IMG/VR virus record: IMGVR_UViG_3300028800_001391
Location: 1 to 23,553 of that record
Reading direction: 5' to 3' (one strand)
DNA length: 23,553 nt
From: a virus
The notes beneath the pieces were generated by a model. That model searched no databases. It saw only the letters and a list, made by a program, of their open reading frames with translations, and was not told where the DNA came from. Positions 665 through 19,669 of the stretch are shown piece after piece (position 1 is the first letter of the stretch; every line of letters begins with the position of its first letter). Made by a program: the position numbers and the translations under genes.

Positions 665-795
665 CTCGGTCTACTCCCTGCCCGGGCGCAACCGGGCGGG
701 GAGCCGCTGGGAGGTCTCCGGATGAACACCAACCGGAATTCCCAAAAATTGAGCGCGCTCACCTCTGCCGTTTTTCAGACAGAGAGTAGGCCGAG
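665..795 (-). ncRNA. Candidate structured RNA element between two genes
   Basis: There is no gene from 638 to 799. In the minus-strand RNA, 795-781 pairs with 679-665 as a 15-position helix (CUCGGCCUACUCUCU with AGGGAGUAGACCGAG) with one C-A mismatch and one U-G wobble. Inside it are GCCCGG-UUGCGC-CCGGGC directly next to the closing helix, UUCCGG/CCGGAG around an 11-nt loop, and GAGGU/ACCUC that could enclose that hairpin. No run of T follows, so it is not an intrinsic terminator. The folding is by eye. It could be a 5' UTR regulator, a free small RNA, or a cruciform DNA site; the outer repeat also gives it the look of a 131-bp inverted-repeat element, but no target-site duplication was seen. 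It matches no RNA family I know. Confidence 0.5.
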
Positions 796-3026: not shown

Positions 3027-3501
3027 GTATTGCGATTGAATCTAACTTTAGTCTTATAACCCATGCCATTCCCATCTCCTTCGCCGCATCGTAATCGACC
3101 TCGTCAAACCACTCGGCGAGCGGCCTAACGCGAAACGAGCTGAGAAGTCTGGAAAGGCGTGTCTCTTCCTGGTCGCACCATTCGATCTTGCGGCTGTTGA
3201 TTATTTTCATGCGCTCCACGAAGGGCGTTCCCTTGGTGCGCATTTCGTCATTGCGTAAAAGCTCGGCGTCGCGCATTTCGCGGGTCCGGGCCATCAGCCA
3301 CTTGATTTCATCGGCGACCATCTTGTGAAGAACTTTGGGCGTGAATCCTTTGGATGCACGCTCCACCCTATTATGCCTCATGATTTTCACCACGTTTTCA
3401 AGGGTGTGGATAGCCGAAACGTAGGTTTTTAGCCCTGAATTAGCCACTGCACCTAGTGCAGTACGGTAATCGCGCTCCTCTATTTCCTGTGCGTTTTCCA
3501 T
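3019..3501 (-). CDS. Conserved-looking charged helical protein, unknown
   Basis: 160 residues from the ATG at 3501, which follows the helicase stop by one base (TGATATG). An earlier in-frame ATG lies inside the helicase gene and is not used here. The protein is helical and rich in Arg, Glu and Met (for example EIKWLMARTREMRDAELLRN) and has a single cysteine. No motif is recognised. The N-terminal codons (residues TALGAV) contain one of three copies of the 17-bp palindrome described at 3446. It lies between the helicase and a putative DNA-binding protein, so a helicase partner or loader is possible on context alone; nothing in the sequence proves it. Confidence 0.65.
   Translation of the reverse strand: MENAQEIEERDYRTALGAVANSGLKTYVSAIHTLENVVKIMRHNRVERASKGFTPKVLHKMVADEIKWLMARTREMRDAELLRNDEMRTKGTPFVERMKIINSRKIEWCDQEETRLSRLLSSFRVRPLAEWFDEVDYDAAKEMGMAWVIRLKLDSIAIHG
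3446..3462. repeat. 17-bp palindrome, copy 1 of 3
   Basis: ACTGCACCTAGTGCAGT: two 7-bp arms (ACTGCAC/GTGCAGT) around a CTA centre. This copy is inside the coding sequence of the 160-residue protein just after its start. The same 17 bases recur exactly at 6718 and, inverted, at 11207. Possible roles are a repressor operator or another protein-binding site. Confidence 0.8.
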
Positions 3502-6709: not shown

Positions 6710-6917
6710 GACGCTTTACTGCACCTAGTGCAGTGCTATTATCGGTAGTAATTGGGCCGCGCAGCTTGACCTCGCTGGACGCCCCGAAGAGGGCCCACGA
6801 CGGCTTGTGGCCTATCGTGTGCCCCTCCTTGACCTTGGTGGCGATGTCGTTGAGGAGGTCGACCATGTCTGAGGCGGAATTCACCTCCTCATCAATCTCA
6901 ATTCTGACCTTCGCCAT
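6702..6917 (-). CDS. 71-residue hypothetical protein carrying a 17-bp palindrome in its 3' end
   Basis: A small protein beginning MAKVRIEIDEEVNSASDMVD, a beta strand followed by a helix, with an acidic first half. The C-terminal codons for TALGAV are the second copy of the repeated palindrome. It begins two bases after the SSB stop and overlaps the next gene by 8 nt. No motif is recognised. The position directly after SSB suggests a role in the recombination operon, without further support. Confidence 0.65.
   Translation of the reverse strand: MAKVRIEIDEEVNSASDMVDLLNDIATKVKEGHTIGHKPSWALFGASSEVKLRGPITTDNSTALGAVKRHE
6718..6734. repeat. 17-bp palindrome, copy 2 of 3
   Basis: Exact copy of ACTGCACCTAGTGCAGT, in the same orientation as the copy at 3446, inside the last codons of the 71-residue gene and just upstream of the next start codon. 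It is read in the same codon frame as copy 1 (T-A-L-G-A-V), so a peptide-level explanation must be considered, but copy 3 is not coding. Confidence 0.8.
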
Positions 6918-9108: not shown

Positions 9109-9225
9109 TCATCTCAGGGGATCCATGGCGATACTCTTTCGAGCGCTGGATTTTCCTCCCTCGAATAACTCCCGACTTGTACGCCGGGCGTCGGAACAAC
9201 CGCTTGGCCGCTTGGTGTTTTCCAC
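9109..9225 (-). CDS. Possible 38-residue basic peptide (GTG start)
   Basis: A GTG start with GAGG seven bases upstream gives a peptide with many Arg, Lys and Ser residues (ENTKRPSGCSDARRTSRELF), ending MDPLR before TGA. There is no recognisable motif. It follows the zinc-ribbon microprotein and a hairpin (9249-9266), and the frame continues past its TGA into the membrane-like stretch. Support is weak. Confidence 0.25.
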   Translation of the reverse strand: MENTKRPSGCSDARRTSRELFEGGKSSARKSIAMDPLR

Positions 9226-9265
9226 GTGTGTGCCTCGCTTGGTCCGACGCTCGGCGTGCACCGAG

Positions 9266-9361
9266 CTACTTCAATTTTTTTCCGCAATCTACGCAGCGAT
9301 ATCCACCCGGGATTTTCACCGATGTTGCATGCGGACACTTTTTCTTCGGTTCCTTTTTCAT
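9266..9361 (-). CDS. 31-residue zinc-ribbon microprotein
   Basis: Reads MKKEPKKKCPHATSVKIPGG then YRCVDCGKKLK. Cys9 and His11 (CPH) and a C23-x2-C26 knuckle (YRCVDCGKK) make a compact four-ligand zinc ribbon, with a lysine-rich N-terminus for nucleic-acid contact. This is too organised to be chance. Its TAG is followed at once by a 6-bp hairpin (GCTCGG/CCGAGC, 9249-9266). The leader is A/T-rich with no Shine-Dalgarno sequence. It is probably an early regulator or nucleic-acid-binding peptide. Confidence 0.65.
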   Translation of the reverse strand: MKKEPKKKCPHATSVKIPGGYRCVDCGKKLK

Positions 9362-9758: not shown

Positions 9759-9830
9759 TTGCGCGAGTAGGAATTGCACCTACGATTTCGAGATTATGAG
9801 TCTCGCGACCTACTGCTGGTCCACCGCGCG
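9759..9830 (-). tRNA. tRNA-Met (CAT), initiator-like
   Basis: 72 nt fold as a cloverleaf. Acceptor CGCGCGG/TCGCGCA has a C1-A72 mismatch and a G7-U66 wobble. T8 and G9 follow, then D arm GACC-AGCAGTA-GGTC, anticodon arm CGAGA-CTCATAA-TCTCG, variable AAATC and T arm GTAGG-TGCAATT-CCTAC, with A73 as discriminator. C1-A72 and the CTCATAA loop are hallmarks of bacterial initiator tRNA. The three consecutive G-C pairs at 29-31/39-41 of initiators are missing (AGA/TCT). The D loop has no GG pair and the T loop has G55 instead of T55, so the tertiary elbow is unusual. CCA is not encoded (CAA follows). Elongator Met or Ile2 (lysidine) are alternatives. Confidence 0.8.
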
Positions 9831-9932: not shown

Positions 9933-10220
9933 ATGAACTACGACACTAACAACGACCGCAACAACAACGACGGTCGCGGTAACGATGGGCGTAACAACAA
10001 TGACGGACGCTTCAACGACGGTCGCCCCAACGATGTACACAGTAACGCTGTAAGCGTATTTATTAAGAAAATCCAGGCAAAAAACTACGGCACCGGCAAC
10101 CCTATCCCAGCCAGCGAATCGCAGGCACTGAACGCGGAATGGGCGACCATCAAGTCCGGCCTCCCCGCCAACGAACAGGCAGCCGCTGAGGCGCAGGTCC
10201 GCCAAGTTCTCGTCGCGTAA
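9933..10220 (+). CDS. Plus-strand protein with an Asn/Asp/Gly/Arg repeat head
   Basis: 95 residues from the ATG at 9933, chosen because an A/T-rich leader (AAAAAAATAAAATAT) like those of other genes precedes it; an in-frame ATG 60 bases upstream is less likely. Residues 4-34 are a low-complexity repeat of N-D-G-R units (NNDGRGNDGRNNNDGRFNDG), followed by a helical domain: SVFIKKIQAKNYGTGNPIPA then NAEWATIKSGLPANEQAAAE and AQVRQVLVA. It is the only convincing gene on the plus strand and converges on the lysis genes. No family is recognised. The polar repeat could be a flexible or phase-separating nucleic-acid-binding tail. An opposite transcription unit in a junction region is typical of moron-like genes. 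Confidence 0.65.
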   Translation: MNYDTNNDRNNNDGRGNDGRNNNDGRFNDGRPNDVHSNAVSVFIKKIQAKNYGTGNPIPASESQALNAEWATIKSGLPANEQAAAEAQVRQVLVA

Positions 10221-11206: not shown

Positions 11207-11223
11207 ACTGCACTAGGTGCAGT
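11207..11223. repeat. 17-bp palindrome, copy 3 of 3 (inverted, non-coding)
   Basis: ACTGCACTAGGTGCAGT, the reverse complement of the copies at 3446 and 6718. It lies two bases beyond the holin stop codon, between that stop and the terminator. Because it is non-coding here, conservation of all 17 bases is not due to protein sequence. Confidence 0.8.
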
Positions 11224-13069: not shown

Positions 13070-13336
13070 TTAGTATGTATAGGCCATCACGCAGTCATTT
13101 GGATTGGTCTCGTCAAACACATCCACCCGGCACCGTTGCCCAGAGGAAAGGAGAGTGACGTCTACGTTTCTCGCTATAGGGACGTTGCGCACAATGGTGA
13201 GAGGGTTCTCCGCGTAGCTGACATCCACGGTATTCGAGTTGACGTGCACGGCGCTAATGAACGCTTTTTTGAAAGTCGCGCGCACCAACTTGCGCTGCTG
13301 TTTCTGGAAGGTGTCGTTCCCCGGTTGAAGGCTCAT
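13070..13336 (-). CDS. Small baseplate/tail-tip associated protein
   Basis: 88 residues, beta-rich: FKKAFISAVHVNSNTVDVSY, NPLTIVRNVPIARNVDVTLL, then SGQRCRVDVFDETNPNDCVM. The pattern of short strands ending in 'G-x-x-C-x-V-D-V-F-D' suggests the small OB-like barrels found at tail tips, though the family is not recognised. It follows the tail-tip gene with an ATGA overlap, so it is translated with it and probably binds to it. Two cysteines (about 68 and 82) could pair. Confidence 0.6.
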   Translation of the reverse strand: MSLQPGNDTFQKQQRKLVRATFKKAFISAVHVNSNTVDVSYAENPLTIVRNVPIARNVDVTLLSSGQRCRVDVFDETNPNDCVMAYTY

Positions 13337-16300
13337 ACGTTGCCCGTATCTATCGTCAGTGAATAATCAGAGTTGTTATTGCCGCCACCCTGTTCGAAGT
13401 CTTGATCATACACGCGCGTCGGACCGTTCACTCCGGAGGTGTTATTGCCGGTGTTGACCACGGTGACCACGTCGAAGAGCTCGGCGCCGACGTTGATGAC
13501 CTGCGTCGAGGCGTTCTGGTTGAGGTACTGGTTGGCATTGATGAGCGCGTTGTTCGCGCGCGTCTGCGCGTCCGCTTGGGTGAGAATCGTGTAGTCGACG
13601 AGCACGAGTTCGCGCACGGTCACGCCTGCCATGAGGGTTGTGGCTCGGGCTGTCGCGGATACACCGCTACCTTGCACCGTCACTTGCGATACGTACTCCT
13701 TATCGGACTGGTCGACGTTCTGCTGGTAGAGCTGGTTGTCGTACGTGTAGGTCGGCTGGTCGGTGGAGTTTAGGAAGAGCGACTTGAACCGACCGAAGAG
13801 GTCGGAGAAGAACCAGAACATGAGGGATGTGGCCAACGCGGTTATATCGCTCTCGATGTCGTCTCCGGCATTGTAGGAAACCGAGGGAAGCGGTTTCCAC
13901 AGAATCGGAGCGACGATTTCTTGCGCGAATAGAGTGGTGTTGGAATCTGCCGAGAATCCCCAGTAACCAGACTTGAGATAAGCGAGGGTCGTATTGTCGT
14001 CGTTCCATGCTGCTACCATAATGCCGTCAATAAAGGCGAACATCTGGCCGTCTATCATTACGATGCGAAAGGTGTGCAGCACCGTCGGGTCGATGTTGAG
14101 CTGGGCCGTGTTCGAAAACTGCGCGTTATACTCCACATCCTCAGCACTGTTATAGAAGCGGTACGTGGTCCCGCTGGCAAGACGCTCGAACCGGCACGTG
14201 ACCAGTGAACCCGTCCCCGTCGTGCCGTTCCATAGGAGATGGAAATAATAAGCGGTGGTGGGACTTGTGGCGCTGTTTGACCTAAATATGAACTGAAATC
14301 CTGCAGCACTTGCAGCCGACGCTGCGATTTTCGCCTGGAAAGATATCTCACCGTTCGACATCTGGTTCGTGCTCAAAAGCGCAGTGTTGCCAGCCGCTAC
14401 ACGCAGCACGCGATTCGTGACGGTGAAGGTTCCGTTTATCTGGGAGATTGTGTAGAGAAGTTCCCGGAACGTGTACACGATCTTGAACGAGAATATCGCG
14501 GCAAGGCGCGCGAAGGCCCTCGTGACCTCGCCCACGTTATTGGAGTTGTTGTATATCGCAAGCTGGAAGTACCGGAACTCTTGCGTCACACTCGCGCTTG
14601 CTCCGAGCCCAACCGAGAACGCGCCCTGCATCGAGGGGGTGGCTGCAACATTCGACTGTATCGAATAGTGACCACTACTACTGTTCTTGAGGAGATAGGA
14701 CTGCGTAGCGGGGTCGTAGGTTGAGAGCTCGTTACCCGAACTGACGCCCGGCGAAAATATAAAGTTGAAGTCCCAATACGAGTATCTTCGAACGACGACC
14801 ATGTACCAATCGAGGTTAGTCATCGTCGTAGGAAGAGAACCGCTGTCTATCGTGGTCTTGGAACCGGAGACGTTCTTCACCACCGCCCACGTGCTGTGTA
14901 ACGTGTCGATTTCGCAGCGTAGCCAGTTATTTGAATCGACGTACATGCCATACACGTACACGGTTCCGAGCTGCGTGTTTAGAAAGAAGACGCGCATGAG
15001 ATGGCCGAAGGTGTTGTTTTGCACGTTGGCGAGGACCATAGTCGCCTCGGCCCCCGAGTTCAATCCGGACACGGCGTTGGGAGCAGCCTGGAACGTCCAC
15101 GTTCCAGCGATTTGATTCCAGTTCTGGTTCGTCGTCCCGTCGAATATGTCGGTATAGAATACCGGCCCGACGAATTGGTATCCGAAGCGGGTGACGGTAG
15201 TTTTCATCTTCTTGTAAAGGTCGCGACCGACGATGAGCACGTCGTTGGAGGTTCCAGAGACTTGCTGTTGTATGTCGTCTATAAAGTAGATATTCCTCGG
15301 CACCACCTCTGGAATGCCGTTTGAGGCGTAGTATCCCTGCCACAGTACAATTTTCCGATTGCGCATGATTGCTGCGGCGCCGGGACCAGTGGGAGAAGCG
15401 CCTACCCACTTGTTGTTCGCGTTGCCGAGTTTTATCGAAATGCTTGAGGGCTGCCCCGCCTGCTCCGATATCGAGTACCCGATGATGTCGGAAGATATAT
15501 CGGCGGTGATGCTGTTCTGCACGTACTGCCACAAATAGCCTGCGCTCCCCCCTAAGTACCAATACGCGCCTTGCGGAACGAAGGAGGCGGTTGTGCCAGC
15601 GTTGAATTCGGTACCGTCTGTGTACACGAACACGGAAGGGTACGAGAACGTTTTTCCGTCGTCGGACTGTATCAGCATGCAATTCGTGTGCGTCGTAACG
15701 ACCGCGGAACTGCTGCCCTGCGCCGTTTGCGAGACAGAGTCGACAAGAATCGCACGCATGGTGATGTACGCCATCGAACCCTGTACCGTCGCCACGGGGT
15801 CGAGGAATTGGTTTTGATTCAATGAATTGGTGGAGCCGACAGGCATGACCGGTATGGGAGGTGCCCAGAGGTCGGCGCTGGTGTTGTTGAGGCTGTTCAG
15901 TATCGCCGTCACCCATATTGAGAAGTTCTGGTTTGATCCTGCGGACCCGAGAATGTTATGGAAGCCAGAGAACGCGACATACTGAACCCCATTGAGGTAG
16001 AAGGAAGTGAGCCCCTGTATCGTCCAATCGAACGAATCTGCGTCGTTATACGCCCACTGCACCTGAGTGCCGAAAGCGGAGGATTGGTCCTGGAAGACAT
16101 AGAAGATGTCGTAGCCTGTAAATCCAGAAGCGAAGGTGTGGCTGTTCGGCTTGATGTACGCGCACCCCGAAAACATGATGCCTCCGACGTTCCTACTTTG
16201 GAGAGCTGTTATGGAAAGGTTGTCAGTGGGGTAGTTGGTGTTCGGCATGGAGCTGGCAGTCGTGGTGTTTGAGCTCCACGTCACACCACCGTCATCGGAG

Positions 16301-16764
16301 AATTGGTGCACGATCTGCACGTTGGTGGCGTCGCTAATGAGGTTCTTAAAATAGAAGACGTCGACACGGTAGCTGCCGGCGAACCAGTCCGACACTGATA
16401 TCGCCACTTGGTTCGTTGTGGGCGTGAGTCCGGAACTGGTATCCAGTGTCACGGACGTGGGCCACACACCAGCGACCGCATTCAAATCAGGTGCCTTGAG
16501 GAATACGACGTGACCGCTACCGTCGAATCCGGCAGCGAGCATCGCACCATCGGGCGCCAGTACCATACCTCCCCGGTTGAGCGGAAGACCGCTCCCATTG
16601 AAGAGTTGTGCATTCGGCTGGATGGTGTCGTCGACGATTTGGCACGTGAAATACGGTCGAACGGTGAAACTCTGCTGGAGGGCGAGCAGCGTGCTGGTGA
16701 GCCACTTGTATCCCGAGGTGGTTAGCGTCGCAGCGAAGTCCTTAAATGTGCCAGTGGTGCTCAT
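13333..16764 (-). CDS. Large tail-tip protein with Asp-box and lectin-like domains
   Basis: 1143 residues, the longest gene. The N-terminal ~420 are beta-rich with two Asp-box motifs of sialidase-type propellers (S156-D-D-G-G-V-T-W163 and S366-D-D-G-K-T-F). A hub-like segment at ~425-520 (SSISIKLGNANNKWVG, FIDDIQQQVSGTSNDVLIVG) resembles tail-associated baseplate proteins. About 530-740 and 790-970 look like two concanavalin/LamG folds (for example WLRCEIDT, FAFIDGIMVAAWND). The C-terminus (about 990-1143) is again hub-like, with YVSQVTVQGSGV and QTRANNALINANQYL. It probably combines tail-tip assembly with binding of host surface glycans. Sialidase catalytic residues were not identified, so enzyme activity is not claimed. 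Confidence 0.75.
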   Translation of the reverse strand: MSTTGTFKDFAATLTTSGYKWLTSTLLALQQSFTVRPYFTCQIVDDTIQPNAQLFNGSGLPLNRGGMVLAPDGAMLAAGFDGSGHVVFLKAPDLNAVAGVWPTSVTLDTSSGLTPTTNQVAISVSDWFAGSYRVDVFYFKNLISDATNVQIVHQFSDDGGVTWSSNTTTASSMPNTNYPTDNLSITALQSRNVGGIMFSGCAYIKPNSHTFASGFTGYDIFYVFQDQSSAFGTQVQWAYNDADSFDWTIQGLTSFYLNGVQYVAFSGFHNILGSAGSNQNFSIWVTAILNSLNNTSADLWAPPIPVMPVGSTNSLNQNQFLDPVATVQGSMAYITMRAILVDSVSQTAQGSSSAVVTTHTNCMLIQSDDGKTFSYPSVFVYTDGTEFNAGTTASFVPQGAYWYLGGSAGYLWQYVQNSITADISSDIIGYSISEQAGQPSSISIKLGNANNKWVGASPTGPGAAAIMRNRKIVLWQGYYASNGIPEVVPRNIYFIDDIQQQVSGTSNDVLIVGRDLYKKMKTTVTRFGYQFVGPVFYTDIFDGTTNQNWNQIAGTWTFQAAPNAVSGLNSGAEATMVLANVQNNTFGHLMRVFFLNTQLGTVYVYGMYVDSNNWLRCEIDTLHSTWAVVKNVSGSKTTIDSGSLPTTMTNLDWYMVVVRRYSYWDFNFIFSPGVSSGNELSTYDPATQSYLLKNSSSGHYSIQSNVAATPSMQGAFSVGLGASASVTQEFRYFQLAIYNNSNNVGEVTRAFARLAAIFSFKIVYTFRELLYTISQINGTFTVTNRVLRVAAGNTALLSTNQMSNGEISFQAKIAASAASAAGFQFIFRSNSATSPTTAYYFHLLWNGTTGTGSLVTCRFERLASGTTYRFYNSAEDVEYNAQFSNTAQLNIDPTVLHTFRIVMIDGQMFAFIDGIMVAAWNDDNTTLAYLKSGYWGFSADSNTTLFAQEIVAPILWKPLPSVSYNAGDDIESDITALATSLMFWFFSDLFGRFKSLFLNSTDQPTYTYDNQLYQQNVDQSDKEYVSQVTVQGSGVSATARATTLMAGVTVRELVLVDYTILTQADAQTRANNALINANQYLNQNASTQVINVGAELFDVVTVVNTGNNTSGVNGPTRVYDQDFEQGGGNNNSDYSLTIDTGNV

Positions 16765-17186: not shown

Positions 17187-17723
17187 TTAGCTGGACCATT
17201 CGTACTCTATCGAGATGCCGAAGGTGTAGGACGCCGTGCCAACCGCGTCGGGTATCTCGGAGTAAGAGGCTATCTCAATGAACCCGACGCCGTTCGTGTC
17301 AGTTCCCGCGCGTATCTGCGGCGTCGACGTCCCGGCGCTTCCGAACTCGGGGACGTAGAAGTTCCCCTGTGCGCCGACGGCGGTGTCGAGGCCGATGTAA
17401 CGTGAGTATAGACCGGGCGGTGTGGCATTTTCTCCATAGCCATTTTCGTATACACGTATCCACTCCTGCGCACTCACGGATTTGGTAGCCGTGTGCGAGC
17501 CCGGGTCGACCGTGTCGAAGGTGGTCACGCGCACGTTCACGGCCGACGCGATGCCGGCCGCCGCGGCGTAATTGTTGTATATACGGAAAATCAGTATGTT
17601 GGAACTCTCGCCTTGGAGCACCGGGAGGTTGTTCCCACCGAGTGTGGACTGCACGTACGCCGCGGCCGCGAGCACGTCGTACGGCGTTACGCTTCGGCGG
17701 AACGTGATATCGGGGGCGAGCAT
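17187..17723 (-). CDS. Tail-associated structural protein, unknown
   Basis: 178 residues, beta-rich and free of cysteine, with segments ESSNILIFRIYNNYAAAAG, ASAVNVRVTTFDTVDPGSHT, GLYSRYIGLDTAVGAQGNFY and a final FGISIEYEWSS. The ‘N-I-x-I-F-R-I-Y-N-N’ pattern and Gly/Thr/Ser-rich loops suit a beta-sandwich structural protein of tail or baseplate. Start leader TAAACTAATCAT has no Shine-Dalgarno sequence. Function is inferred from position only. Confidence 0.65.
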   Translation of the reverse strand: MLAPDITFRRSVTPYDVLAAAAYVQSTLGGNNLPVLQGESSNILIFRIYNNYAAAAGIASAVNVRVTTFDTVDPGSHTATKSVSAQEWIRVYENGYGENATPPGLYSRYIGLDTAVGAQGNFYVPEFGSAGTSTPQIRAGTDTNGVGFIEIASYSEIPDAVGTASYTFGISIEYEWSS

Positions 17724-18178: not shown

Positions 18179-19669
18179 TTATTGCGTTCCTTGGAACTGA
18201 CTATAAAGCTGGGCGGCGATTTGTTTAGCGTTTAGTCCGCCAGCACCTGCGGGCACGTTGAGATGGAATGTGTTCACGAGTTGAGTGTACTGGTTTCCCT
18301 TAATACCTGTAGAGAGTGCACTCAAAAGCGAGTCCATGAGACCCGACGAGGCGGCTGTTTGGTCAATGCGGGAAAGGGAGTCGTTGCTAAAACCCACCCC
18401 AGTGGATTGCAAACCCCTCGTGAGAGCGTCGTTCGGTGCCTTGGATCCCCCGAAAAGTGCCTCTAGTTGAGAGATTCCGAACCCTATGGCACTCCCAGTT
18501 GGATTGAGAGCGGTCTTTAAGAGATTGCTCAATCCTCCAGTACCCGCTATAAGATCGAGAACCTTGCCAATAGCAATGGCGATTCCATCAAACACCGAAG
18601 CGATGTCGCTGCTGATGAGAAGCGCTTTGAGTTTGTTCCAGTCGGTAAACCACTGGTTTGTGCCCACATCCGCCTGCTGGAACGCCTGGTCAATGGTCTG
18701 CGAATTCGTCGCTATCGCCTTCGCATCTGCTGCCACTTGCGGAAGATGAGAGGCGTTTGTCTGGAACTGCCCGACCTGCGTTGCGGAAAGCCCGAAGTTC
18801 GTCGCGATGAGGGAGGCACCTGGACCCATCTTGAGCAGCGCATCCGACGTCCTCTGTATCGCAGAAAGCCCTCCGTCCGTGAGTAAGGACTTCTGTATTG
18901 CACCGAATGACGTACCGAGAAGTTCCATAGGACCGACGGCACTCTGAGAAGAAGACGCGAGCACAGCGAATATCTGCTCCGTGCCGGACGCGCCGACGTT
19001 CTTAATCTCGGCGCCGAACGTGGAAATAAGGCCGTTGAAGGTATCAACGTTCTTGTTCACCGCGGGAAGCTGATCGGAGAATCCGCTGAACTGGTTCGCG
19101 AGGTCGGGTATCGTTTCCTTGGCGGCCTCTGCGCTGTGCATGAGGTCGGTGAGTACCTGTATTGCCTGGTCCGTGGTGGTGACACCGAACTGCTTGAATA
19201 TATCTATAGAGGCCGAAGTGATGTCGTTGAGGCTGCCGAAACCTGCGGTCGCGAGTTCGGACATGGCCGCTACCACCGTCTGCTGGTCCGAAACGTTCCC
19301 AAAGATTGCCGAGACCTGCGCCATCGAATTAGCGATGTCCTGCGCGGATTGTGGAACCGTCGTGGAGAGGTTGAGGGCACTCTGACTCATCTGGCCGATT
19401 TGAGTACTCGTCTCGCCCGCCGCAGTTCCGGTCGTCGCCATGGCCGTCTGGAAGTTCACGGACTGCGCGATTGCAAACGCGAACACGGACGCGACGCTCG
19501 ATATAATCGCGGGCGATACTGAGCGACTAAATATCGCGGTCCAGTCCACGGTCTCGTCGTTCATCGCCTCAACGCCACCCTGAACGACATTGAGAGCCTT
19601 TTTCATCGACGACTCAATGCCGGACGTGTCGCCCGTTATGAGTATCTTGAGTTCGTCGAATGCAGCCAT
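18179..19669 (-). CDS. Tail tape measure protein
   Basis: 496 residues, long and helical. It has an N-terminal hydrophobic segment (SPAIISSVASVFAFAIAQSV at about 50-70), Ser/Thr/Gln/Ala-rich repeats typical of tape measure proteins (GTAAGETSTQIGQMSQSALN; STTVPQSAQDIANSMAQVSA), and a second hydrophobic region near 360-400 (FDGIAIAIGKVLDLIAGTGG). It sets tail length; at about 0.15 nm per residue the tail would be roughly 75 nm, a short siphovirus tail. It lies directly after the tail assembly chaperones and before the distal-tail candidate, the standard order. No lytic domain is seen. Confidence 0.85.
   Translation of the reverse strand: MAAFDELKILITGDTSGIESSMKKALNVVQGGVEAMNDETVDWTAIFSRSVSPAIISSVASVFAFAIAQSVNFQTAMATTGTAAGETSTQIGQMSQSALNLSTTVPQSAQDIANSMAQVSAIFGNVSDQQTVVAAMSELATAGFGSLNDITSASIDIFKQFGVTTTDQAIQVLTDLMHSAEAAKETIPDLANQFSGFSDQLPAVNKNVDTFNGLISTFGAEIKNVGASGTEQIFAVLASSSQSAVGPMELLGTSFGAIQKSLLTDGGLSAIQRTSDALLKMGPGASLIATNFGLSATQVGQFQTNASHLPQVAADAKAIATNSQTIDQAFQQADVGTNQWFTDWNKLKALLISSDIASVFDGIAIAIGKVLDLIAGTGGLSNLLKTALNPTGSAIGFGISQLEALFGGSKAPNDALTRGLQSTGVGFSNDSLSRIDQTAASSGLMDSLLSALSTGIKGNQYTQLVNTFHLNVPAGAGGLNAKQIAAQLYSQFQGTQ

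Follow-up and report, generated by a model that had tools for sequence, protein, structure and literature searches.

In the early region of bacteriophage T7, RNase III processing sites lie between phage genes. GOLLD is a described RNA family whose members span several hundred nucleotides and show strong covariation. It represents the large structured RNAs that are borne by phages (PMC12286853, PMC2864571). Here, we describe a foldable element at positions 661–799 of a 23.5-kb virus record, which was analysed as a whole and is referred to as the window. Like the T7 RNase III sites, the element separates two genes of one apparent operon by a long, interrupted helix and lacks a terminator. Whereas a T7 site is a single irregular hairpin, the element folds into a multi-arm junction; the hosts are unrelated, and cleavage of the element is a prediction. 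GOLLD and the element are alike in their compact multi-helix folding within phage genomes, but the element comprises only 139 nt and has neither an Rfam match nor a homologue in the data that we searched. In a limited literature search, structured RNAs of phages infecting Patescibacteria appeared to be little described.

Genomic context

All called genes of the window are on the minus strand except one likely plus-strand gene (9933–10220), which contains an N/D/R/G-rich repeat region and has an A/T-rich leader like other genes of the window. The called genes are separated by a median of 4 nt. Few gaps exceed 100 nt, among them the 162-nt gap at 638–799, which lies between two minus-strand genes and is nearly filled by the element (Table 1). 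The stop codon of the upstream RecU-like gene (800–802) directly adjoins the element, and about 24 nt lie between its other end and the start of the next gene (637), whose leader is A/T-rich and has no Shine–Dalgarno site. Such sites are absent from the genes of the window altogether, many starts being preceded by A/T-rich stretches such as AAAATAAT. Read in the frame of the downstream gene, the element is non-coding (stop at 673). A 48-codon ORF starting at 722 on the plus strand, with GGAGG 7 nt upstream, was not counted as a gene because genes here lack Shine–Dalgarno sites. The RecU-like protein matched no entry in Pfam or PDB.

The RecA protein of the window is closest to those of Patescibacteria, with a best match of 65% to a Paceibacterota genome. 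This similarity, on which the host assignment rests, makes an ultra-small member of the Patescibacteria the probable host of this divergent phage. RNase III (TIGR02191) is encoded in 56 of 60 genomes of the likely host order, to which the best RecA match belongs.

Table 1. Features of the element and its surroundings in the window
Feature	Position	Strand	Remarks
Whole foldable element	661–799	unassigned	inverted repeat; folds on both strands; fills most of the 162-nt gap
Closing helix, left arm	661–676	both	pairs with 784–799
Closing helix, right arm	784–799	both	pairs with 661–676
G-C hairpin	677–700		9 pairs on plus; stacked on closing helix
Long middle arm	701–760	both	contains UCCGG/CCGGA inner hairpin
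Small arm	764–783	both	in folds of both strands
Promoter-like match	631–660	plus	weak, sigma-70-like (TTAACA, 18, TAAACT); just before element
RecU-like Holliday junction resolvase gene, upstream	800–1228	minus	weak match to PHROG 843 (E 5e-4)
Secreted-protein gene, downstream	86–637	minus	183 aa; N-terminal hydrophobic stretch

Fold architecture and strength

The element is bounded by an inverted repeat (661–680 with 780–799) of 85% complementarity. On the minus strand, CUCGGCCUACUCUCUG and CAGGGAGUAGACCGAG pair at 15 of 16 positions, including one wobble, with one C-A mismatch in the closing helix, and GUU/AAC lengthens the helix outward beyond a 1x1 mismatch. On the plus strand, the 12 pairs of the helix core are all formed, one of them as a wobble. 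Pair probabilities are about 1 over most of the closing helix on both strands. An inward continuation, CUCUCUG/CAGGGAG, is possible on the minus strand and yields the long helix described in an earlier sequence-only reading of this DNA; in this alternative, CUCUG (~780–784) and CAGGG extend the closing helix with a pair probability of ~0.4–0.5. The closing helix and three inner arms are formed by either strand, giving a four-armed shape. At minimum energy, the helices of the plus strand follow one another directly, the only unpaired bases being three before the small arm. The inverted repeat had been noticed in the sequence-only reading, and two inner hairpins proposed there, the G-C hairpin (677–700) and UUCCGG/CCGGAG (716–738), are found in the minimum-energy fold; a possible GAGGU/ACCUC helix is absent from it.

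The folding energy of the minus strand (−65.3 kcal/mol, z −4.24) was better than that of 200 of 200 dinucleotide shuffles, a check that had been named in the sequence-only reading, and none of 200 shuffles equalled the plus strand (−69.6 kcal/mol, z −6.84). The proposal that the gap is not simple spacer is supported. When the window was scanned in 131-nt tiles (362 per strand, 20 shuffles each), the element took first place on the plus strand and second place on the minus strand. The background is heavy-tailed, since a tile at 13785–13915, inside the large minus-strand gene 13333–16764, reaches a plus-strand z of −5.25. Ranked against the best helices of whole-window shuffles, the closing helix by itself reaches only about the 95th percentile; it is the overall fold, together with its fit to the intercistronic gap, that sets the element apart.

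Homologue searches

No homologue of the element was found in viral contigs, phage records or plasmid records, nor in several hundred Patescibacteria genomes, and the window holds no second copy. Covariance models, which were built from this single sequence and may therefore miss distant homologues, revealed no second copy in 27 records of relatives (minus-strand model) or in fetched stretches of relatives (plus-strand model). The exact 22-nt core of the element had no match. DNA matches of 18–29 bases in three Patescibacteria genomes were rejected as homologues, their lengths being of chance size. At the gathering scores of the covariance models in Rfam release 15, no family matches the element, and the best sub-threshold matches in 600–860 remain far under these scores; an Rfam search had been suggested in the earlier reading. 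The only Rfam match in the window is a tRNA at 9759–9830. The element is a real, well-folded orphan prediction without comparative support.

The relatives themselves were reached through the head–tail adaptor. Among viral contigs, the RecU-like, DnaB-like and exonuclease proteins had no relatives, and the RecA query found distant relatives only, whose gene order is not shared; the final scan with the head–tail adaptor yielded 29 relatives. Those relatives whose genes were compared have the structural module in common with the window, and the replication module hardly at all. There was no credible RecU-like gene in the 27 relative records searched; a RecU-like match in one of the genomes (G761) was dropped, as it sits in the frame of a 250-aa ORF unlike RecU.

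Strongly folding intergenic stretches are also present in relatives. Two of these, G001 and G007, share one folded intergenic RNA, identical in both (L196:19103–19269, z −5.5), which resembles the element in its long closing helix, interrupted by a 1x1 mismatch. Its innermost seven pairs, CUCUCUG/CAGGGAG, are those of the window minus strand, a coincidence expected at ~1% by chance in a rough, after-the-fact estimate, whereas its inner arms are unlike those of the element. A model of this RNA did not detect the element under default filters, and with filters off the window scored 15–18 bits, the strands being about equal. Because detection needed the filters to be off and did not distinguish the strands, the model comparison lends no support to homology, which we do not accept.

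Functional interpretation

Our preferred reading, tentative and at somewhat under an even chance, is that of an intercistronic structure in the mRNA, which RNase III cuts or which protects the RNA, and which sets the replication genes apart from the gene for the secreted protein. Both flanking genes and the element between them would be transcribed into one minus-strand polycistronic mRNA, in which the closed multi-arm structure would form right behind the RecU-like stop codon. It could then serve as a double-stranded site cut by host RNase III or as a block to exonucleases, so that the replication and recombination messages and the secreted-protein message may meet separate fates, while the downstream gene would keep its short A/T-rich start region open. 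The extended double helix characteristic of RNase III intercistronic sites is found here in the 15 of 16 paired positions and the outer GUU/AAC, between genes of the same strand. Gene order likewise favours the minus strand, whose fold beats its shuffles, and the gap consists almost entirely of the element; the folded intergenic stretches of relatives also speak for this reading. Against it count the somewhat better fold of the plus strand, the dependence of the host assignment on RecA similarity and the failure to find a homologue in the searched data, which leaves no covariation to set in its favour.

The RNase III genes of the likely host order and the lack of certain transcription signals also speak for this reading. 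No minus-strand promoter-like site was found in the gap or anywhere in 500–1000, and neither strand of this region has an intrinsic terminator (a G+C-rich stem followed by a T run), in agreement with the sequence-only reading, which had held that the element is not a terminator. That reading also assigned the element to the 5′ UTR of the secreted-protein gene; this is plausible, although "intercistronic" fits better because the gap lacks a minus-strand promoter and the element abuts the upstream stop codon.

The plus strand offers another reading, that of a stand-alone small RNA started from the promoter-like match at its border and folded into a four-way junction, acting in trans or as an antisense RNA to the 3′ end of the RecU-like gene. 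In its favour, the plus-strand fold is the stronger one, by ~2–4 kcal/mol and with the lower z, and the promoter-like match stops just short of the element. Three wobbles of the plus strand become mismatches on the opposite strand, as opposed to two of the minus strand; these counts lean towards the small RNA, but favour neither strand clearly. We nevertheless consider it unlikely, as the plus strand of the window has only one likely called gene, the region 500–1000 lacks a terminator for such a transcript and the plus-strand model found no homologue. The match itself is weak and possibly a chance occurrence: such matches number one in 500–1000 (0.4 expected) and eight over 20 kb (9.9 expected), no more than in shuffles. 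That the element is a discrete regulator representing a new class of small four-way-junction RNAs of Patescibacteria phages, with the window as its only sequenced member, seems to us rather improbable.

The lack of a clear strand preference in the wobbles would also suit a DNA-level site, used in binding, replication or recombination, or the remnant of a small mobile element whose inverted ends are now the closing helix. Folded as DNA, both strands behave alike, and a resolvase-like gene is adjacent. However, the arms of the inverted repeat are separated by a 99-nt spacer, and long spacers between arms hinder cruciform extrusion. There is also no second copy in the window, and the flanks, read by eye, contain no target-site duplication as would mark an inverted-repeat mobile element; compared with attC, the GTT/AAC ends of the element are in reverse order. 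Taken together, we regard a DNA site as quite unlikely. A functionless chance fold, or a by-product of G+C-rich spacer, would be in keeping with the modest percentile of the closing helix alone, with the z of −5.25 reached by a coding tile without known role and with the lack of conservation in our searches. Against it stand whole-fold z values of −6.8 and −4.2, for which no shuffle was as good, and an unusually long gap that is filled almost exactly; we attach a low probability to it. Should the element turn out to act as a processing site or as a regulator, it would reveal how phages of this kind part replication from later functions in long operons; at present, it is chiefly of use as a candidate to follow in RNA-Seq data or by mining metagenomes more deeply.

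Other repeats and folded regions

The window contains a second long inverted repeat at 9178–9262 (18-position helix, plus-strand z −5.3); a tiny zinc-ribbon ORF of the minus strand (9266–9361; MKKEPKKKCPHATSVKIPGGYRCVDCGKKLK) lies upstream of it. In addition, the palindrome ACTGCAC(C/T)(A/T)(A/G)GTGCAGT is present at 3446–3462, 6718–6734 and 11207–11223 (three found, 0.02 expected), two of the copies being inside genes; it is possibly the binding site of a phage regulator. Used as bait, the 17-nt palindrome retrieved 24 contigs, about the chance number by our own estimate, none of them with common proteins.

Further folded regions were seen in the relatives. In G001, a folded region of ~1.1 kb (L196:18260–19345) without an Rfam match lies behind a promoter-like repeat (18227–18256), and 321 of its bases (18980–19300) are identical in G007. 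It contains two small ORFs, each flanked by complementary arms; between the two units, these arms show compensatory changes (AAGCCGAT/ATCGGCTT versus AAGCGGAT/ATCCGCTT). The region may merit separate study. Four intergenic stretches of G771 (L238:18817–19001 and L239:5537–5807, 14443–14628 and 17229–17366) fold with z of about −5 to −7 and have no obvious likeness to each other. Finally, G008 carries ~30 tRNA genes and one tmRNA gene at L205:7061–12986.
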